The translations under genes were made by a program, and so were the position numbers. From NCBI GenBank assembly GCA_018401435.1, contig JAGYJW010000009.1, positions 1-64,000 on the forward strand: 64,000 bases of DNA, read 5' to 3'. Below, one piece after another: positions 11,100 through 41,902 of the stretch. Under the pieces are notes generated by a model. That model saw nothing but the letters and a program-made list of their open reading frames with translations. It searched no databases and was not told the origin of the DNA. Source of the stretch: Deltaproteobacteria bacterium. GTDB lineage: Bacteria; Myxococcota_A; UBA796; UBA2385. Numbering within the stretch: the first letter of the stretch is position 1; every line of letters starts with the position of its first letter.

Positions 11100-11123
11100 G
11101 GCTTCTACAACCGCCGGGGGCAC

Positions 11124-11153
11124 TGAATGCCGATTCAACTGAATGGTGATTCA
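11124..11153. promoter_or_regulatory. tandem TGAAT-N4-ATTCA operators
   Basis: Two identical-architecture palindromes, TGAATgccgATTCA (11124-11137) and TGAATggtgATTCA (11140-11153), have starts 16 bp apart, about one and a half helix turns. They lie 25 bp upstream of the TetR start. TGAAT(G)...(C)ATTCA is the core known for FadR-type TetR repressors of fatty-acid degradation, so these are the likely autoregulatory sites for tetR-etfBA. Confidence 0.7.
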
Positions 11154-21331: not shown

Positions 21332-22087
21332 ATGTCCACCGACAGCGACACCCGCTCCAGCGCCGCAGCCTTTCCGGCCGGGCTCGTCGATGCCTTCGAC
21401 GACGCCCAGCGGCGCACCATCGACCTCATGGGCCTCGCCCGCGACCGGCTGGAGGTCGGCATGTCCGAGGCCGACATCGTGGACGAGGTAGAGGCCCAGG
21501 CCAAATCAGCAGGCTTCAACCTTTGGTTTCGGCCGCCCTATGCCCACCTGGACTGCCCGGAGCGCCCGGCCTTCTTGCCCGACAAGAAGGGCCGGCTGGC
21601 CAAGGGCATGGTGGTGGAGATCGACGCCGCCCCCGCCACCGATGAGGCCTATGGGGTCTTCGGCGCCGCCTTCGTCTTTGGCGGCGGAACCGAGCCCAAG
21701 CTGCTGATCGACGCAAAAGAGGCCTGCAAGGCGGCCTGCGGCTTCGCCAGCCGCTGGAAGTGCACGGGCGAGGTCTTCGTCTATGCACAGGCCTGGGCCA
21801 ACAACCGCAGCTACCGCGTGGACAGCGACTCGGTGGGCCACGCCTGCTTTCCCCGCTTGGGTCGCACGGCCGGCGCCTGGCCCCACCTCGCCCGCGCGGC
21901 CACCCTGATGCGGCGGCACCGCATCACCTGGCTCAACCCTCGCCGCATGCACGGCTTCTACGCGATCCAGCCCCGGCTGGTGCTGGATGGCCGGGGCTGC
22001 GCCATCGAAGAGCTGGTCTTCGTGGATGGCAACGAAAAACGCATCCTGGGGCGGCCCGGCGGCCTGGGCGAGATCGGCCGCTTCTGA
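21332..22087 (+). CDS. M24 (pita-bread) peptidase-like protein, possibly inactive
   Basis: A 251-residue protein with the creatinase/aminopeptidase fold order: an N-terminal helical region (RRTIDLMGLARDRLEVGMSE), then GFNLWFRPPYAHLD, GMVVEIDAAPATDEAYGVFG, and a C-terminal LVLDGRGCAIEELVFVDG. In active M24 enzymes a D-D-H-E-E set binds two metals. Here one Asp (in VEIDA), a His (VGHAC) and a Glu (AIEEL) are at plausible places, but the second Asp is not evident (GVFGAAFVFGGG). It may be a metal-poor or non-catalytic family member. It lies upstream of the hairpin repeat and IS630. Confidence 0.7.
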   Translation: MSTDSDTRSSAAAFPAGLVDAFDDAQRRTIDLMGLARDRLEVGMSEADIVDEVEAQAKSAGFNLWFRPPYAHLDCPERPAFLPDKKGRLAKGMVVEIDAAPATDEAYGVFGAAFVFGGGTEPKLLIDAKEACKAACGFASRWKCTGEVFVYAQAWANNRSYRVDSDSVGHACFPRLGRTAGAWPHLARAATLMRRHRITWLNPRRMHGFYAIQPRLVLDGRGCAIEELVFVDGNEKRILGRPGGLGEIGRF

Positions 22088-22100
22088 GCCCGGGCCGTGG

Positions 22101-22145
22101 CGCCGGCCGCGTCCAACGAATCGGGACTTCCGATTCGCTCAACTA
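22101..22145 (+). repeat. 46-bp hairpin repeat, copy 1 (interrupted by IS630)
   Basis: CGCCGGCCGCGTCCAACGAA leads into a perfect stem-loop, CGAATCGG-GACTT-CCGATTCG, and ends in CTCAACTA. A second copy at 28891-28936 is identical over its first 30 bases, then differs by one inserted T and one C-to-G change. The final TA of copy 1 (22144-22145) is the IS630 insertion dinucleotide. It may be a REP-like element or a small non-autonomous mobile unit. Confidence 0.7.
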
Positions 22146-22152
22146 AACAGGT

Positions 22153-22659
22153 TCACGGGGACGGTCGATCATCCGGCAGGAATCGAGCGACCTGCCCCGC
22201 GATGAGGGAGGGGCTGTCGCGGAAGGTGCCGAAGGTCCTTCGGAGCGCGTCATCGCGTTCGTCGGTGGTGTGGAAGAACCGGTTGTGCGTGGTGACGCGC
22301 TTTGTGGTCTTCCAGACCCCCTCCATGGGGTTGAACTCGGGTGAGTACGGCGGCAGGCGGTGGAGCTCGAGCGTATCCGCGTTGTTCGCGAGCCACTCCT
22401 TGCCTGGCCCGTCGAGCCAGTGGCAGGGGCCGTTGTCGATGACCAGGAAGACCTTGCGCCCTCGATGGTGCTCGACGAGGAGCTGGAGGAACTCGTGGAA
22501 GGTGTGGCCGTTGAAGACGTCCGCGAACTGGTGGGTGAACTGCGGCTCCTCCTCGAGCGTGACCGCACCGAAGACGTGGGCTGTCTTTCGGATGCCATAG
22601 GTATCAACCCGGGGCTGTACGCCACGTCGTGACCACGTCTGGTGGAGGGTGCCGTCCAA
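22153..22659 (-). CDS. IS630 transposase, C-terminal catalytic part (OrfB)
   Basis: The 168-codon second frame encodes the DDE domain: VFLVIDNGPCHWLDGPGKEW holds the second catalytic Asp and HRLPPYSPEFNPMEGVWKTT the third acidic residue and its conserved surroundings. The first catalytic Asp (FEDEASFWLDGTL) lies just upstream of the nominal start and is reached only through the -1 frameshift from OrfA. All three acidic residues are present, so the transposase should be active. It acts at TAAACAGG ends of its own element. Confidence 0.9.
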   Translation of the reverse strand: MDGTLHQTWSRRGVQPRVDTYGIRKTAHVFGAVTLEEEPQFTHQFADVFNGHTFHEFLQLLVEHHRGRKVFLVIDNGPCHWLDGPGKEWLANNADTLELHRLPPYSPEFNPMEGVWKTTKRVTTHNRFFHTTDERDDALRRTFGTFRDSPSLIAGQVARFLPDDRPSP

Positions 22660-22685
22660 CCAGAAGCTGGCCTCGTCTTCGAAAG

Positions 22686-23258
22686 CTACGACTCCTCGGC
22701 ATGCACTGGCTTTTTTTTTATCTCGGGCAGGCGCTCGCGCAGCCAGGTCGCCTGCGCCTCGACGTTGGCCCGAGCGAGTCGCTTACGGGGTCGCTGGACG
22801 GAGAACCCGAGCTTGTTGAGGAGCCTGGGAATGTGGTGATTGTGGTAGCTGACGCCCCACTTGTCCTGGATGAGCCGACCAATCATCGGGCCGGTCCACA
22901 CCCCTGACGTAAAGCCCGCATCCATCGGCCCCGCCTCGACGATGGCGCTCAGCTCGTCGAGTTGCTCTGCCGTTAGCCGGGGAGCGGCCCCCGGAGCCTT
23001 CTTGGTTCGGAGACCCTCAGCACCCTCCGACTCGTACCAGCCCAGCCAGAAGTTCACGGAACCGCGGGCAGAACGGACCTGATCAGCGATGTCGACGACG
23101 CGAGACCCGTCGATGTAGGCACGGACCGCGCGCGCCCGCTTCCACATCGCGAGGTCACCGGTCGCCTCTGCCTCATCGAGGAGTGCGTCCAGCTTCGCGA
23201 GCTCTTCGGGAGTCTTGCGCTCTGCGCTGACAGCCTGACCGGTCTTCGAGCGACCCAT
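22686..23258 (-). CDS. IS630 transposase, N-terminal part (OrfA)
   Basis: The 190-codon first frame encodes the DNA-binding half: two helix-turn-helix regions (RVVDIADQVRSARGSVNFWL and PMIGRLIQDKWGVSYHNHHI) joined by an Arg/Pro-rich linker (KKAPGAAPRL), as in IS630/winged-helix transposases. It ends IKKKPVHAEES just past the A9 run at 22711-22719. A -1 slip there changes the reading to KKKASACRGVVAFEDEASFW, joining it to the catalytic half and adding the first DDE aspartate. Frameshifting to make the full transposase is well known for this family. Confidence 0.9.
   Translation of the reverse strand: MGRSKTGQAVSAERKTPEELAKLDALLDEAEATGDLAMWKRARAVRAYIDGSRVVDIADQVRSARGSVNFWLGWYESEGAEGLRTKKAPGAAPRLTAEQLDELSAIVEAGPMDAGFTSGVWTGPMIGRLIQDKWGVSYHNHHIPRLLNKLGFSVQRPRKRLARANVEAQATWLRERLPEIKKKPVHAEES
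22711..22719 (-). other. programmed -1 frameshift site (A9)
   Basis: On the coding strand nine consecutive A bases lie in GAGAT-A9-GCC. Zero-frame reading gives I-K-K-K-P and soon a stop; a -1 slip gives I-K-K-K-A and continues into the DDE domain. Position and product fit programmed frameshifting in IS630 elements. Confidence 0.8.
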
Positions 23259-23345
23259 GACCTGCCTCCACGGCGAGATCAGGGAAGCCTGATCCTCATG
23301 GGATCCCGAGTCAAGCGGCTTGGCTGCGGTTCAATGGGATCCTGT

Positions 23346-23981
23346 TTAGAGGCTGCGGGCGAGGGCGCCCACCACCTCGCGCCAGCGCTCCGTCTCTTCG
23401 ACCTCGACGAAGTGCAGGTCGTAGAGCAGATAGCCATCGCCCCGGGACAAGGCGCGCACCTGGGCCGAGGCCTGGGCCGGCGCCATGCCGGGCATGCCCA
23501 GCTGCACCGTCACGCGCCCGCTCTCGACAAAGACGACCTTGACGTCGGCCGGCAGGGTGAAGGTCGCGCCTTCGACCCCAAGGTGCAGCACCGTGGCGCC
23601 CCCATCCAACAAGGAGATGCCGCGGCCCGACGGCGGCAACAAGGCGAATGTGCGCCCGCCTGCGCCCTCGCCGCTGGGCGGGCGCCCCTCGGCGAATGCG
23701 TCGATAAAGCCCAGCAGCACGCCGTCCCCACCGCGCGCGGGCACCGGGACGCCCACCCGAACGACGCTGGCCTCGAAGCTATAGGAGCGGTTGCCCAAGG
23801 CGAACCACACCCGCAGATCGTCGCCGGGCCCCAGGCCCCGCTCCGGCACGCTCAGCACCACGCCGCCTTTCTCCACGCGCAGCAGGCTGGCCCGTATCAA
23901 GCCGCCCCGGCGGGGCATGAGCTCGCAGGCCACCCGCTCCTGGGCGGCGTCGTCGAGGATTCGGCGTGGGTCCAGCGCCAT
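23346..23981 (-). CDS. PilZ / YcgR-like c-di-GMP-binding candidate
   Basis: A 211-residue cytoplasmic protein. The first half is beta-rich and YcgR-N-like (GLIRASLLRVEKGGVVLSVP, then DLRVWFALGNRSYSFEASVV), and the second half (TLPADVKVVFVESGRVTVQL, DGYLLYDLHFVEVEE) has PilZ-type strand order. A clean R-x-x-x-R plus D-x-S-x-x-G c-di-GMP motif is not obvious, so ligand binding is uncertain. The stop codon TAA is completed at the boundary of the IS630 element, so the insertion landed at the very end of this gene; the last residues may differ from the ancestral protein. Confidence 0.6.
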   Translation of the reverse strand: MALDPRRILDDAAQERVACELMPRRGGLIRASLLRVEKGGVVLSVPERGLGPGDDLRVWFALGNRSYSFEASVVRVGVPVPARGGDGVLLGFIDAFAEGRPPSGEGAGGRTFALLPPSGRGISLLDGGATVLHLGVEGATFTLPADVKVVFVESGRVTVQLGMPGMAPAQASAQVRALSRGDGYLLYDLHFVEVEETERWREVVGALARSL

Positions 23982-24075
23982 CGGGAGCCCCCGGGGAAGG
24001 CCCCTGCCCGGTAACCCGTGGGCCGCGCGCCCGGGCCCGCGGGCACCAGCAGCCGACAGGGATTAGGGGCAGCAG

Positions 24076-24945
24076 GTGAAGATCGTCCACCTCACCGACC
24101 TCCATGTGCAGACGCGCCCGCGGCCCTCCGAGCTGCTGGGCAAGCGCCTGATCGGCACCGCCAACCTCTACCTGCTGGGGCGGCGGGCCAAGTTCTCGCC
24201 CCAGGTCCAGCAGGCGGCGGTAGACGCCGCCCTGGCCGAGTCACCCGACGCCGTGGTGATCACCGGCGATCTCACGGCCCAGGCCCTGGACGCCGAGTTC
24301 GCGGCAGCGCGGGCCCTGCTCGACCCCATCCTGCGCCGCTTCCCCACCGTGATGATCCCGGGCAACCACGACACCTATGTGCGCGAGAATGTGCCCGGTG
24401 AGCGCATGCGCGAGGTCTTTGGCGCCTGGATGGGCGACGGAATGCCCGCGCTGATTCGCATCGGCGATGTGCAGTTCGCCACCTTGGAGACCTGCCGGGC
24501 CCACCCCCTCTCCAGCGGCTACACGCCCCCCGACCAGCTGCCCGTTTTGGGAAAACTGCTCGACAATGCCGGTGAGGCCTTCACCTTCCTGTGCATTCAC
24601 TACCCGCTGCGGGGTCGCCGGGGCGAGGCCTATGGCCCCTCCACCCGGGCGCTGGCCAACGCCGCCCAGGTCGAGGCCTTCCTGGCCCAGCAGCGGCATA
24701 TCGGCGCGATCCTGCACGGCCACGAACACCATGGCTTTCGCACCGAGCTTGCGACCGGCGACGGCCCCGTCCCGGTGCTGGACCCCGGCGCCAGCGGCTA
24801 TGCCCACCTGCCCGATGTCGACCGCCGGGCCCACCTCAACGTCTACACGGTCCGAGACCGCCGTCTCCAAGAGGTCCGCCGCCTGCGCTACGCCGACGGC
24901 CGCTTTGAAGAGGAGCCCGGCGGCGCCTACGCGACGGGCCGCTGA
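24076..24945 (+). CDS. calcineurin-like metallophosphoesterase
   Basis: A 289-residue enzyme beginning GTG (AGGGG upstream) and reading MKIVHLTDLHVQT. The five metal blocks are visible: D-L-H near residue 8-10, V-I-T-G-D-L around 60, P-G-N-H-D-T around 95, L-C-I-H-Y-P around 175, and L-H-G-H-E-H-H around 215. It has no signal peptide. Similar proteins hydrolyse phosphomonoesters, cyclic nucleotides or UDP-diacylglucosamine (LpxH-like), but length and context do not decide the substrate. It ends 11 bases before the lipoprotein hydrolase gene, suggesting co-transcription. Confidence 0.9.
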   Translation: MKIVHLTDLHVQTRPRPSELLGKRLIGTANLYLLGRRAKFSPQVQQAAVDAALAESPDAVVITGDLTAQALDAEFAAARALLDPILRRFPTVMIPGNHDTYVRENVPGERMREVFGAWMGDGMPALIRIGDVQFATLETCRAHPLSSGYTPPDQLPVLGKLLDNAGEAFTFLCIHYPLRGRRGEAYGPSTRALANAAQVEAFLAQQRHIGAILHGHEHHGFRTELATGDGPVPVLDPGASGYAHLPDVDRRAHLNVYTVRDRRLQEVRRLRYADGRFEEEPGGAYATGR

Positions 24946-24956
24946 AGGGAGTCGCG

Positions 24957-26918
24957 ATGCGCCTGGACCCGCTGCCTGCAGCCTGCCTGCTGGCCTTTGC
25001 CCTTGCCTGCAAGGACGCGCCCGTAGCCGACAGGCCCGCGGCCAACGGAGTGCGGGCCATCGTGGACCCCGACCGCCCCGAGCACTACTTCGATGTGCCC
25101 TTTCCCAGCGACGACCTGCTGGGCGAAGACGGCTTGCCCGACCTGACCGGCTTTCCCGTGGCGGGCACCCCCCTTGCCATGCAGCTGGTGGATGGCTGGT
25201 TGCGCCGGCTGGAGCAGACCGCCGTGGGCTTCAGCAACCACGGCGCGGCCTATTTCCGCTTCGAGGGCCACCTGAACCTGCCCGCGCAGACCGATGGCCT
25301 GCCCGACGACCCCGTCCTGTTGATCGATCTCGACACGGGCGCGCTGACGCCCCTGGAGCTGCGCTTCATCGACGATCCCAAGGACGACCCCTACTTCGCC
25401 CCCCACACCCTGGCCCTGGCGCCCCGCCTGGGCCACCCGCCCCGCAGCGGCGCGACCCTGGCGGCGGTGGTGATGCAATCGGCCGGAGCGGCGCCTGCGA
25501 CGGGGTCGGCCCTGCCCGCCGGGCTGAATGCGGCCCTCACCCGGGCCGGCGTCTCGGGCAGTCCGGCGGTGGCGACGGTCTTCACGGTCCAAGACGCGGT
25601 GGGGCAGCTGCAGGCCCTGGACGCCGACGCCCGCGCCCGCCTGGGGGCAGACCCCGACTGGGGCGAGATCACCCTGCGGCAGGTGCTGCGCCTGGAGTAT
25701 CGCCAGGGGATCACTCCCTCTGGGAACGAAGGCACCGCGCAGATTGTCACCTATGCCGATGGCGATGTCGCCACGACCTGGATGGCGCCCCAGGACCCCT
25801 CCCTGGACCTGGTGCTCGACCTCGACGAGAGCTGGCCCATGCAGGTCTTCGAGGCCCAGGTCCCGCTGCTCAACTACTCGGGGCTGGACGACCGCCCCTA
25901 TATGAGCCCCGGCCTCGGCCACATCCAGGACTTCGACCGGATGACCGGCTGGATCGACTTCGACCGCGGCGGCCTGCTGAGCGAGCCCGACGTCGAAGCG
26001 GTGCGGGTGACGCTGAGCATTCCCCGGGCGCCGGGCGGCGGCCTGGGCACCGACCTGCCCGTCCTGCTCTGGGACCACGGCACCGGCGGCAGCGCCTACA
26101 ACTTCATCCAGCGCAGCCAGTTGACGACGGCCGCGCCCTGACCCAAGCCATGGCCGAGGCCGGCTGGGCGATGGTGTCGCGGGACAGCCCGCTCTATGGC
26201 GCTCGCTACCCCTTGATTGACGAGGGCTACGGGGCATCGCTGGGCTTCTACAACATCGTCAACCTGCCGGCCTTCCGCGACAACCAGCGCCAGGCCGCCC
26301 TGGAGGGCGAACAGCTCCGGCTCTTCATCGAGACCGGCCTGCGCTGCCGGCGGCACCCTGAACACCGACCAGGTGCGGCGCGGCGGCCACAGCCTGGGCT
26401 CGGTGACAGCCAACCTGGGCATGAGCATCCACCCCGACAGCTGGGAGGCTGCCTTTGTCAGCGGCAGCGGCGGCCTGCTGACCCACTACTTCCTGGATAC
26501 GGGACTCCTCGAAACCATCGACCCCGCGCTCATCTCCAGCCTGTTTGGCCTATTTGGGGCGCCAGAGCCCGAGACCCTGAGCACGGCGGCCATCCTGGGC
26601 GCGGCCCTGGACCTGCCCGAGCCCGCCTGGGCGCAGATCGACCGCCTGCACCCGGTTCTGGGCCTCTTCCAGTGGACCATGGATCCCGGCGACCCGATGA
26701 CCGTCGCCCCCGCCATTGACCTGCCGGTGCACGTCTTTGTGGGTGTGGGCGACTACCAGGTGCCCAATTTCACGACCGATGGCCTGGTGGAGGCCCTGCC
26801 CGACGCGGACCGCTTCGATTGCCAGCCCCGCGGCGACTACGATCCGCACCTGTGCTTGCACCGCGAAGTCGAAGGCCCCACAGACCTGGGGGCCTGGCTG
26901 GAAGCCCCGGGTCGCTGA
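24957..26918 (+). CDS. alpha/beta-hydrolase-fold lipoprotein, two frameshifts
   Basis: The first 394 residues read well: lipoprotein signal FALAC (Cys18), an N-terminal region with HYFDVPFPSDDLLGEDGLPD as in secreted bacterial lipase-like proteins, and PVLLWDHGTGGSAYNF at the oxyanion region. Near 26115 the frame changes to MAEAGWAMVSRDSPLYGARY, then near 26345 returns to the first frame, giving GGHSLGSVTANLGM with the nucleophile Ser, and a C-terminal half ending at 26918. The two indels compensate exactly, so a protein of about 653 residues is implied. It is probably a surface esterase or lipase; the substrate is unknown. Confidence 0.75.
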
Positions 26919-26931
26919 GCCCTGCGGGCCC

Positions 26932-28691
26932 TCAAAGGCGCTCGGGCAGCTCCCCCAGGGGGCCCAGCCAGCGCGCATAGCGCGCCCAGCGCTGGTGGCC
27001 GCCGGGCCGAATGCGATCGAAGATGGGGTGCTCGTCGTCAAAGGCCTGCAGGCCCAGGCTGTCGGTCAGGGCCCGAAGGGTGGCCTGGGGGCGGCAGAGC
27101 AGGTCGTCGAAGCTCAGCCGCAGGGGGCTGTCGGGCAGGTTGAGGCGCCAGTGGGCGGACAGCTCGGACAGGCGCGTGGTCGCCCGGGCGATATCCTCAA
27201 AGGAGCCGCTGTGTTCAAGGCCCTGGCCCCGCAGCGGTCGCCGGAAGAGGGACAGCCCCTGGTCCCAGCTGTTGCGCTCCACAAAGAGGATGCGCGCCCC
27301 GGGAAGCAGGCGCGCGACCGCCCCGACCTCGAGCAGACCGCGCGGGCCCAGGTGCAAGACGCTGCGGGCATGGGGGCTGGACTGCCGTTCCAGGCCCATC
27401 GCCCGTCGGGCGCTGGTGGCCACCCCCCGGCTGCCCAACCAGTCCAGGCAGTCCGGCCAGGGCCGCCCCACCCGGCGGGGCAAGGACTCGCGCACAGCCT
27501 CTGACCGGATCGGCGAGCAAGCCTGGCGCACCTGGGTGTGTTCGGCCAGGAGCTCCGCCACCAGCCCGGCCCCGGCACCCGGCGCGCCCACCACCACGAT
27601 GGTATCGGCGGCCGCTGGCGTGCCAGCGGGGCTGGCTCAGGGCGCGCGCCGAGAACCAGGCCTGCGTCTCGTCCAGGTCGGCCTGCAGCCGGGCCTCGTT
27701 CCAGCGCAGGCCCATGCGGTGGTTGCCTTCGACCCAGGCCGCCATCGCCCGGTTGGCCTGGCCCAGACCGTCGTAGAGGTCGCCCAGGGCAAAACGCAGG
27801 GCCGCCCGGTCGGCCTCGGGCAGGGGCAACAAGAGCCAACGATGATCGCAGGGCCTCAGCCTCTGTCGGGGACCGGGCCATCTCGGTCTGGGCGATCAGC
27901 AGGGACACGCTGTCTTGGGGCCGAGGCTGCCCATAGACGGGGCGCAGGCCCCGACGGACCTGGGCCCGCAGCAGGCCCGCTTGGGCCTCCGCTTCCAGGC
28001 CGCCGCGGTGGCCCACCGGCAGCCGGGCGAGCACCGCCCGAAAGCCGCGTTCGGCCACCCGGGGCTCGCCCAGACTGAGGTGGGCCTGGGCCCGAACCAG
28101 CTCCACATCAGCATCTTCACCGGCCAGCCCCCGCAGGCGGCCAAGCTTCGCAGCGCGGCGGCGGTCGCCCTGGGCGAGGCAGGTGCGGGGCCGGGCTGGC
28201 GACCGCCACGCCATCGCCGGGCACCTGGCGCGCGGCGCCGTGAAAGGCCGCCCGCGCCCCTTCCAGGTCTCCCCGCGCCCGACGGGCCCGGCCCACCTCC
28301 AAGCGAACGGCGACATCGGCCGGGTTGAGCATGAGCAGGTGGCCCAGGCAGGCCTCTGCCTCCTCCCAGCGCCCCAACCGCAGCAGCACCCGACCCAGGG
28401 CCTGACCGTGTGCTGAAGAAATATCCCTGGGCAGGCGCCGTAGCAGGCCGCCGCAGCGTCATGGCGCTCGCAGCGCTCATAGGTCTGGCCGAGGGCCAGC
28501 AGATCGACCAGATCGCCCTGGCTGAGCTCCGCCGCGCGCAGCAGCAGGTCTTCGGCCAGCTTCAGCTCTCCGGCGTCGCGGGCCTGGGCGCCCCGCAGCC
28601 GCAGGGCTGCCGGCAGGGCCAGGCCGCGCGTGGCAAAGCGCCGCGCTGGCACCCGGATGTGCACGGCAGCGGTGGATGCGGGTTGGACCAT
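26932..28691 (-). pseudogene. TPR-sulfotransferase protein broken by several frameshifts
   Basis: From an ATG at 28691 behind GGAGG, TPR helices begin (LKLAEDLLLRAAELSQGD, YERCERHDAAAACYG) and continue in alternating frames (EEAEACLGHLLMLNPADVAV; VRAQAHLSLGEPRVAERGF; ALRFALGDLYDGLGQANRA). The last 221 codons (start of that frame at 27597) form a sulfotransferase domain: VVGAPGAGAGLVAELLAEH in place of the PAPS-binding loop, ARILFVERNSWDQGLSLFRR, and LRLSFDDLLCRPQATLRAL. TPR-sulfotransferase fusions are a known architecture that transfers sulfate from PAPS to proteins or glycans. At least four indels separate the pieces; the product as written is not made in one piece. Confidence 0.65.
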
Positions 28692-29319
28692 GGGGACCTC
28701 CGTGCCCCATCAACGGAACCACACCGCATTCGTTGAGCCGAATCCGCAACTGTTCACCGGCGCGCCGCGGCGCAGGGAGGAGCGCACCGTTGAACCAGCC
28801 CAATTCAGGCGGGGGCCCTGCTCCCGCCGCGCCCGAAGGCTGGCAGTTCCCCACGGCGTCCCCAGAGGCCGCCGGACGGCCGGGCACATGCGCCGGCCGC
28901 GTCCAACGAATCGGGACTTCCTGATTCGCTGAACTACAGCAGCGCGCCGGCTCGCCAGAGGCCAGGCCCGGGCTTCGGTCGGCGGGCAGGCGGTCCGGCG
29001 AGCAGCCCCATCGGGCGCGGCGCATATCGGGTGCGACGATGACGGTGGCTGCACGGCGCCACCGATGCTCACCCGCCAGGCCGCGCCCTGGACCGGCTCG
29101 GCCGACCGCGGTGGCGGGGCGGGGGCGCAACCACCGCAGCAGGCGTCGTCACGGGGGCCGGCACCGGCGCCTGAGTTGCTGGGCCCGGCGCTGCGCCTTG
29201 GCCACGCCGGCCTGCCGCGAGCCCCGCAGCGGGCGCTGTAGGAGGCGCTGCTGCCGGGGCAGCGAGGGTGGGCTCCACCCGAATCGGCTCAACGAAAACG
29301 GGCGCCGGCAGCGCATCTT
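28692..29319. other. gene-free 0.6-kb region holding repeat copy 2
   Basis: This lies between the start of the TPR-sulfotransferase gene and the low-complexity end of the HTH gene. It holds the second hairpin repeat and two shorter look-alikes, ATTCGTTGAGCCGAAT near 28732 and CGAATCGGCTCAACGAA near 29279, in opposite orientations. An Ala/Pro-rich minus-strand frame at 29069-29278 may be the shifted tail of the HTH protein. No independent gene can be supported. Confidence 0.45.
28891..28936 (+). repeat. 46-bp hairpin repeat, copy 2
   Basis: Identical to 22101-22130 for 30 bases, then CTGATTCGCTGAACTA. The stem is still formed (CGAATC paired with GATTCG, GG with CC) with one bulged T. It ends in the same AACTA, here uninterrupted, and so shows the pre-insertion form of copy 1. 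Confidence 0.7.
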
Positions 29320-40087: not shown

Positions 40088-40918
40088 TCACTGGAGGAGG
40101 GAGATGACGGACTGGTTGATGTTCTTGGCCTGCGCCAGGGCGGCCACGCCGGCCTGCTGCATGATCTGCTGCTTGGTCAGCTCGGAGGTCTCGTAGGCGA
40201 AGTCCGCGTCCTTGATCTGGCTCTCGGCGGCGGACAGGGCCTCGACAAAGACCGAGGCGTTGTTGATGGCCGAATCCAGGCGGTTCTGCACGGCGCCGAG
40301 CACCGACCGGCCGCTGTTGACCGAGTCCAGGGCCGTGTCGATGGCGTCCAGGGCGGCCTGGGCGCCACCGGCGGTGGACACGTTGAGGGCCGTGGTGTCC
40401 ACGCCCAGCGAGGTCACGCGCAGGTCCACGAGGCTGATGGTGATGCGGCTGGTGGAGGCGTTGGTGATGCCGACCTGCACATCCAGCGAGGTGCTGCTGT
40501 TGTCGCTGAGGGACACGCCGTTGAACTGGGTGGAGGAGGCGATGCGGTTGATCTCCTCCTGCAGCTCTTCGAACTCGTCGGCGATGTAGGCGCGCTCGTC
40601 GTCGTCCAGGGTCTCGCTGGCGCTCTGCACAGCGAGTTCGCGCATCCGCTGGAGGATGTCGGTCACCTCGTTGCTGGCCGACTCCGCCGTCTGGATGATG
40701 GAGATGCCATCATTGGCGTTGCGGATGCCCTGCTCCTGGCTGATGACCGCGGTCTCCAGGTTGGTGGCCACACCCAGACCTGCGGCGTCGTCGGCGGCGC
40801 GGTTGATGCGCATGCCGCTGGAGATGCGCTCCAGGCTGGTGCCCAGCCGCTGCGTGGTGCGGTTGAGCTGCCCGGTAGCCTTGATCGAGGCGATGTTGGT
40901 GCGAACGGTCATGGCCAT
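40088..40918 (-). CDS. fliC: flagellin (copy 1)
   Basis: A 276-residue flagellin, the filament subunit exported by the flagellar type III apparatus. From ATG 40918 (GGAGGG upstream) it begins MAMTVRTNIASIKATGQLNR and has the conserved D0/D1 N-region (RISSGMRINRAADDAAGLGV) and C-region (LGAVQNRLDSAINNASVFVE ... QQAGVAALAQAKNINQSVIS-LLQ). The central variable region is very short, so the filament surface is minimal. It is closely similar to and exactly as long as the upstream copy at 41072. No other flagellar gene is in the window. Confidence 0.95.
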   Translation of the reverse strand: MAMTVRTNIASIKATGQLNRTTQRLGTSLERISSGMRINRAADDAAGLGVATNLETAVISQEQGIRNANDGISIIQTAESASNEVTDILQRMRELAVQSASETLDDDERAYIADEFEELQEEINRIASSTQFNGVSLSDNSSTSLDVQVGITNASTSRITISLVDLRVTSLGVDTTALNVSTAGGAQAALDAIDTALDSVNSGRSVLGAVQNRLDSAINNASVFVEALSAAESQIKDADFAYETSELTKQQIMQQAGVAALAQAKNINQSVISLLQ

Positions 40919-41071: not shown

Positions 41072-41902
41072 TTAGTTGAGCAGGGAGATCACGGACTGGT
41101 TGATATTCTTGGCCTGGGCCAAGGCAGCGACACCGGCCTGCTGCATGATCTGGTGCTTGGTCATCTCGGAGGTCTCGGTCGCGAAGTCCGCGTCGCGGAT
41201 CTGGCTCTCGGCCGCGGACAGGGCCTCGGAGAAGACCTGGTTGTTGTTCAGCGAGCTGTCCAGGCGGTTCTGCACGGCGCCCAGGGTGGAGCGGCCGGCG
41301 TTGACCGAGTCCAGGGCGGTGTCCAGCGCGTCCAGGGCCGTCTGGGCCAGGGTGGAGGTGGACAGGTTCATCGCGGTGGTGTCCACGCCCAGGGAGGTGG
41401 CGCGGAGGTCGATCAGGCTGATCGCGATGCGGCTGGTGGCGTCGTTCTGGATGCCCACCTGCACATCGAGCGAGGTCTGGCTGTTGTTGGTCAGCTCGAC
41501 GCCGTTGAACTCGGTGACGTTGGAGATGCGGTCCACCTCGGCGGACAGCTCTTCGAACTCGTCCTGGATGTAGGCGCGCTCGTCGTCGTCCAGGGTCTCA
41601 CTGGAGGACTGCACGGCCAGCTCGCGCATGCGCTGCAGGATGTCCACCACCTCGGTCGCAGCGGACTCGGCCGTCTGGATGATGGAGATGCCGTCGTTGG
41701 TATTGCGCATGGCCTGGCGGGTGCTGATGACCTGGCTCTCCAGGTTGGTGGCGACGCCCAAGCCCGCCGCGTCGTCTGCAGCCTTGTTGATGCGCATGCC
41801 GCTGCTGATGCGGCTGAGCGAGTTGCCCAGCGAGCGGTTGGTGCGGCCGAGGTTGCCTGAGGCCATCATCGCCGAGACATTGGTGCGAACGGTCATCGCC
41901 AT
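41072..41902 (-). CDS. fliC: flagellin (copy 2)
   Basis: A 276-residue flagellin from ATG 41902 with GGAGGAGC upstream, starting MAMTVRTNVSAMMASGNLGR. The N-terminal D0/D1 (RISSGMRINKAADDAAGLGV) and the C-terminal ALAQAKNINQSVISLLN are intact. It differs from copy 1 mostly in residues 15-30 and around 140-200 (QTSLDVQVGIQNDATSRIAI versus the STSLDVQVGITNAS form). Tandem duplicates of equal length suggest a recent duplication with each copy kept under selection. A possible flagellar promoter lies upstream. Confidence 0.95.
   Translation of the reverse strand: MAMTVRTNVSAMMASGNLGRTNRSLGNSLSRISSGMRINKAADDAAGLGVATNLESQVISTRQAMRNTNDGISIIQTAESAATEVVDILQRMRELAVQSSSETLDDDERAYIQDEFEELSAEVDRISNVTEFNGVELTNNSQTSLDVQVGIQNDATSRIAISLIDLRATSLGVDTTAMNLSTSTLAQTALDALDTALDSVNAGRSTLGAVQNRLDSSLNNNQVFSEALSAAESQIRDADFATETSEMTKHQIMQQAGVAALAQAKNINQSVISLLN

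Follow-up and report, generated by a model that had tools for sequence, protein, structure and literature searches.

The window analysed here, a 64,000-nt stretch of a Deltaproteobacteria genome, raises the question of what the short repeat is at whose very end an insertion sequence (IS) of the IS630 family has inserted, and why the IS lies there. An earlier note on this DNA had described a 46-bp repeat, possibly of REP-like or MITE-like character, with two copies, one interrupted by the IS and the other showing the empty site. The explanation favoured here, and held with fairly good confidence, is that the repeat is a non-autonomous, TA-targeting MITE-like element whose AAC-TA-G borders are used by a CTAG-specific IS630. 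The hairpin-chain MITE-like family is new, and the nesting of the IS at its borders is clear. The strongest part of the explanation is this nesting at five of five loci, and its weakest parts are the missing mobiliser and the missing same-genus comparison. Coordinates are collected in Table 1.

Table 1. Positions of the element copies, the IS630 copy and the adjoining genes in the window
Feature	Position	Strand	Remarks
M24 peptidase-like gene, left of copy 1	21332..22087	+	Stop TGA, 12 bases before the remnant
Copy 1, right-end remnant	22100..22145	+	Consensus positions 132-177; terminal TA 22144-22145
Copy 1 terminal hairpin	within 22100..22145	+	CGAATCGG-GACTT-CCGATTCG
IS630-family IS at the terminal TA of copy 1	22146..23346	-	Ends AACAGGTTCACG / AACAGGATCCCA; transposase in two frames
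IS630 transposase, C-terminal part, DDE_3	22156..22725	-	NF033545 positions 139-296
IS630 transposase, N-terminal part	22686..23258	-	Helix-turn-helix domains; NF033545 positions 1-134
PilZ-like gene, convergent to the M24 gene	23346..23981	-	Pfam score 21.6, cut-off of 22.5 just missed
Copy 2, near full-length element, left terminal hairpin decayed	28749..28937	+	118.8 bits; right terminal TA 28935-28936

The element and its copies

The two near-identical copies are real: 22100-22145 and 28890-28936 are identical over 32 bases from 22100 and 28890, their surroundings (22090-22131 against 28880-28921) agree at 90%, and each has stem-loop potential and AACTA as its last bases. The unit is larger than 46 bp, however. 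Alignment of the flanks places the 46-bp copies at the right end of an element of about 178 bp, over which the copies agree from CTAGTTCAACAATGCGC to GATTCGCTGAACTAG, with the outline TA-GTTCAAC…GCTGAAC-TA; copy 1 keeps a short right-hand portion of it, and copy 2 most of it. Look-alikes previously pointed out near 28732 and 29279 lie outside the 12 covariance-model matches in the window (E<=10) and differ from the right-end motif by more than 3 mismatches.

A search with the 178-bp consensus finds the element at no fewer than 31 places in its own 7.13-Mb genome (E<=2.4e-15), a lower bound because scoring covered 40 of the 126 first-look candidates; the genome is a draft of 204 contigs with completeness 94.93 and contamination 6.25. 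The possibility that only the two window copies exist, raised in the earlier note as the refuting outcome, fails on this count. Among the copies, 24 are near full length, reaching both ends or nearly so (alignment A1), and several are truncated. The covariance model R1 recovers the same places and no clearly new ones among the 150 of 12490 candidates that were scored. A 19-nt core has 28 matches in the genome at up to 3 mismatches, 12 of them exact, and the reversed pattern has none; not all 28 are members of the family, since one (L025, C79:109140) is unmatched by the full element and another (L020) is the opposite strand of the hairpin at L019.

A typical copy, folded as single-stranded DNA, forms six separate hairpins in series at -63.1 kcal/mol, compared with -36.4 (sd 3.3) for shuffled sequences (z = -8.16), and none of 200 shuffles is equally stable. 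Both terminal hairpins are 33 nt long (GTTCAAC-19-GTTGAAC and GTTCAGC-19-GTTGGAC, with arms GTTCARC / GTTGRAC), and the 24 aligned copies share GTTCARC as a short terminal inverted repeat at both element ends. An attC-like motif (RYYYAAC...GTTRRRY) was considered as a candidate reading of the terminal hairpins. Covariation is weak, with six pairs changed on both sides and 2-7 in slid controls, and the structure is unproven by this measure because the copies are too alike. The window has no Rfam match at gathering scores.

IS630 at the element borders

The IS begins directly at the TA that terminates copy 1, as the earlier note had it, and is flanked on its other side by TA at 23347-23348. Its family assignment follows from a transposase with DDE_3 (PF13358, 96.6 bits; NF033545, 110.3 bits for the C-terminal part against a cut-off of 100, and 91.7 for the N-terminal part alone) and from TA on both sides at the four loci with both ends, in keeping with the TA duplication of the family. 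The two transposase frames meet at an A9 run (window 22711-22719, minus strand). Frameshift-made IS630 transposases have a similar two-frame arrangement; the copies on C150 and C145 carry further indels, and decay or an error in the draft sequence is as likely a cause of the frame break as frameshifting.

The IS is present at five loci (six blast pieces) in the genome. The copy on C134 is split by about 1.8 kb of intervening DNA (L085 6191-7982; G000:C134:17435-19226), and that on C1 is a 137-bp remnant. All five lie on a terminal TA of the element, at right ends (C194, C145) as well as left ends (C150, C134, C1) and in both IS orientations, which bears out the suggestion that the repeat attracts insertions. 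Since the arrangements on C134 and C1 are identical and might be one event copied, at least four arrangements are represented. The intervening DNA in the C134 copy contains minus-strand open frames that, judged by eye, resemble decayed pieces of an IS3-type transposase.

CTAG is scarce in this genome: a 353,747-bp sample from 20 other stretches contains 22 against 388 expected from trinucleotides, the lowest ratio of all tetranucleotides. With about 443 CTAG estimated outside elements (95% range 278-671) and 36 and 45 element sites assumed, random choice among CTAG sites would place five of five IS loci at the element with a chance of about 2e-6 to 7e-6, and four of four with one of about 3e-5 to 7e-5, which rises to 2.5e-4 for the lowest CTAG estimate in that range; the element ends that read CTAG today number 26 by hand count, as against the 36 and 45 assumed. 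None of the 22 background CTAG stands in an AACTAG or CTAGTT context, so a taste of IS630 for AACTAG would suffice. The sequences at the four sites where both flanks are available are CAAC-TA-GAGG, CAAC-TA-GTTC, GAAC-TA-GGTC and GAAC-TA-GGTT, all of the form (C/G)AAC-TA-G. The first of these joins the flanks of copy 1; copy 2, formerly presented as the empty site, is a different locus. At eight loci in other genomes, with 18 distinct pattern hits, visual inspection identified 10 ends of IS relatives. All 10 follow C, nine as C-TA and one as C-TG, and AAC precedes none of them; the relatives thus lie in CTAG but without AAC, and the AAC preference is no property of the clade.

IS630 might instead read the shape of the hairpin beside TA, and not the sequence AAC-TA-G. 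Each of the five loci adjoins a terminal hairpin, and palindromic repeats are known IS targets in other families, as described in passages of PMC1525189. This reading is nevertheless rather unlikely, given that the IS relatives occur in plain CTAG, with C before every recognisable end, and that the four joined sites are all CTAG; recognition of the target sequence AAC-TA-G by IS630 is the more probable course.

Target site and stop codons

The element is located mostly inside CTAG. Its ends were tallied by hand at 23 readable left and 23 readable right ends, with truncated and IS-interrupted ends left out. On the left the outer base is C in 19 cases, T in 2, G in 1 and A in 1, and the inner base is always G; on the right the outer base is G in 18, C in 3, A in 1 and T in 1, and the inner base is C in 21 and T in 2 (L094 and L096). 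Outer bases that vary beside nearly fixed inner ones fit a TA duplication within a preferred CTAG by an element that starts with G and ends with C, and TA duplication by the element is the likely interpretation.

CTAG on both sides, as is seen in most copies, would also result if the element were an IS5-type MITE with a 4-bp CTAG duplication in place of the TA one. Precedent exists in MITEPsy1 of Pseudomonas syringae, which passages of PMC3189936 describe as 100 nt long with 18-nt inverted repeats, inserted into CTAG or YTAA with a 4-bp duplication and perhaps derived from the IS5 family; it resembles the present element in being small and lying at CTAG, and differs in size, inverted repeats and the 4-bp duplication. 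What makes this origin quite unlikely is that the left and right tetramers are unequal in several copies (TTAG/CTAG in L077, CTAG/CTAA in L086, ATAG/CTAC in L095 and CCAG/CTAC in L084) and that variation falls mostly at the outer bases, unlike a 4-bp duplication.

In the whole window, CTAG occurs twice (12205 and 17323), compared with 76.9 expected from shuffles. CCAG or CTGG, single transitions of CTAG, is frequent at element ends, as if CTAG were gradually disappearing by mutation.

Stop codons of neighbouring genes coincide with many of these ends. In 16 of the 30 copies examined, 18 element ends are the exact stop codon of a flanking gene; genes were called with our own small codon-usage caller rather than taken from curated annotation, and the 31st copy (contig C203) was left out because it reaches the end of its contig. 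At L077 and L096 both convergent genes have their stop in the element, and L095 goes against the rule, its joined site A-TA-C being without a stop. Copies collect at gene ends because CTAG is rare and, where it remains, serves as a stop about half the time: the background CTAG of the 353,747-bp sample is the TAG stop of a called gene in 10 of 22 cases. This frequency almost equals that among the copies, for which reason a preference of the element for stop codons in themselves was rejected. A possible in-frame insertion within a gene was inspected at L084, where the downstream frame looks non-coding by eye.

The favoured explanation would proceed as follows. The element would insert into TA, mostly within CTAG, and duplicate it, leaving xTAG at the left and TAG on the other strand at the right. 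As its first base is G and its last is C, insertion into a TAG or TAA stop would re-create the stop, even one shared by convergent genes; with the stop remade as TAG on both sides, insertions at stops would be harmless to the reading frame. Every insertion would also create AAC-TA-G sites at the borders, which the CTAG-specific IS630 could then use, and once IS630 had joined, the remade stop would turn into TAA. The present stop of the PilZ-like gene is TAA, composed of TA and the first IS base (window 23346-23348); before the arrival of the IS it would presumably have been the TAG of the element.

Comparison with related genomes

At the copy 1 locus of this genome, the M24 and PilZ genes are separated by the remnant and IS630. 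The relative G008 has the two genes overlapping across 4 bp, at TTAG, and their spacing is 10 bp in G004 and 15 bp in G009; G005, G003 and G002 have the M24 relative, with no PilZ match on the fetched locus. Because the genes stand end to end in relatives, both the repeat and the IS have inserted where two convergent genes meet. On C113, the element lies between two convergent genes whose spacing is 15 bp in G004 and 38 bp in G005; it supplies both stops, and the C-termini of the proteins are at most a few residues away from those of relatives. Joined with one TA, this site reads CCGAT-TA-GAAG, giving TAG for the left gene and TAA for the right. In other relatives one of the two genes was found, and the pair was not seen together on the locus. 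The empty-site evidence consists of orthologous junctions in other genera, with no same-genus or allelic site among them.

A search of 57 other genomes of the order turned up no complete copy. Ten other genomes match the inner G+C-rich pieces of the element only, over 28-76 nt and with no end (five of 12 loci inspected). In nine family members the covariance model gave no complete element and two matches of 34-39 nt, both in G002, and a pattern search of genome contigs gave no complete element either.

These searches bear on the proposal that the element is a functional gene-end unit, retained because its RNA hairpins end transcription or protect 3' ends, with mobility incidental. Six stable hairpins would suit such a role, as would the neighbouring genes, which by hand reading are convergent at nine, tandem at eight and divergent at none of 17 classed copies (copies without a clear gene on one side were left out). 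The proposal is improbable all the same: the rarity of CTAG and its use as a stop already account for the placement, the element is not found complete in the 57 other genomes searched, Rfam offers no match in the window, and several copies are truncated.

Mobiliser and class membership

The MITE-like character of the element rests on its short, dispersed, gene-free copies (178 bp, under about 300 bp, at 31 places) and on its terminal inverted repeats. The outer and inner base pattern and the stop-codon logic fit TA duplication, with the element-free orthologous pairs coming from other genera. The ends are not shared with an autonomous IS, as those of a MITE would be: the resident IS630 has different ends. 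Two TAGTTCARC sites facing each other at a distance of 0.5-4 kb could mark an autonomous partner, but by hand reading no such pair exists among the 53. The other DDE_3 loci (PF13358 search and blast of both ends) are without element ends, and TA-anchored inverted repeats around four of them include none with element ends. As the draft may lack the partner, the element is called MITE-like and placed under no IS family. It would have been moved in trans, probably by a cut-and-paste, TA-using transposase that was not found here.

Of the two characters proposed originally, MITE-like stands, and REP-like fails on the tag, on size and on the relation to the sole Y1 transposase found. That the element is a REP/BIME-type repeat mobilised by a RAYT (Y1) transposase is very improbable: an xTAG tetranucleotide followed by a hairpin does occur at both ends, inverted, and the genome has one Y1_Tnp gene, but the tag is CTAG and not the GTAG or CGTC that, according to PMC3733652, stands next to a 20-40 bp palindrome, the unit measures 178 bp and has six hairpins, and the Y1 gene bears a different inverted repeat with no element end alongside. 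An origin from REP/RAYT was rejected on these grounds. The Y1 gene itself is RAYT-like, a 318-codon open frame (L129 1411-2425, G000:C2) with an inverted repeat of its own on either side, GGTGCCAGGTGTTGCATGTTGAGCC / GGCTCAACATACAACACCTGGCACC; a second transposase-like gene adjoins it.

Relation to known systems

RUP of Streptococcus pneumoniae and IS630-Spn1 appear, from the passages of PMC2229807 that treat them, to be the nearest published pair. RUP is 107 bp long, has terminal repeats common to IS630-Spn1 and inserts into ISs. The present element is likewise short and intergenic, with TA termini and an IS630-family IS in the genome, both TA-targeting; here, however, the ends are unlike those of the resident IS630, the IS sits at the element ends, and the unit has 178 bp and six hairpins. 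Membership in RUP was rejected because the terminal repeats are not shared with IS630. ERIC and Correia/NEMIS, treated in the same source, have TA termini, short terminal repeats and a stable fold in which the two ends pair as a stem-loop, in contrast to the chain of six separate hairpins found here.

IS630 of Shigella sonnei prefers the TA in CTAG (Tenzen and Ohtsubo 1991, as cited in PMC2170065). It shares with the present IS the IS630 transposase (NF033545, PF13358), the TA duplication and the CTAG target; the difference is that here five of five loci are in CTAG at the edges of one repeat family. ISs that target REPs (IS1397, ISKpn1, IS621, ISPpu9, ISPsy8 and ISRm22, of the families IS3, IS110, IS4, IS256 and IS5) are described in passages of a 2006 survey (PMC1525189), in whose text IS630 has no occurrence. 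Palindromic repeats serve as the insertion place in both cases, but IS630 enters at the border TA and therefore leaves the element unbroken, unlike the REP-targeting ISs. In the open-licence PMC literature, no IS630 tied to a repeat through CTAG more closely than in these systems was found.

Possible significance

Tentatively, the element may act as a self-made landing pad, each insertion of which provides two CTAG-type sites that double as stops, with IS630 living almost only there. If so, IS630 would spread with no damage to genes, the element would live as a commensal and tame a neighbouring IS, and its mobiliser would be a transposase type not yet linked to hairpin chains. Ends that remake stops would allow the element to occupy a convergent gene junction at little cost. 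The account joins three facts that are usually separate, namely a short mobile repeat, the loss of a tetranucleotide and the taste of an IS for the same tetranucleotide, and it offers a testable explanation of harmless IS life in a dense genome. It also suggests IS630 as an addition to the families seen at palindromic repeats.

Other features of the window

Two collinear open frames on the plus strand (24957-26141 and 26217-26918) look like one gene broken by a frameshift, which may be genuine or a sequencing error. A direct repeat of 300 nt (40094-40393 and 41078-41377; 81% identical, 984 bp apart) probably represents neighbouring paralogous genes. At 11122-11153, two 16-bp copies of the near-palindrome ACTGAATGCCGATTCA stand in tandem.
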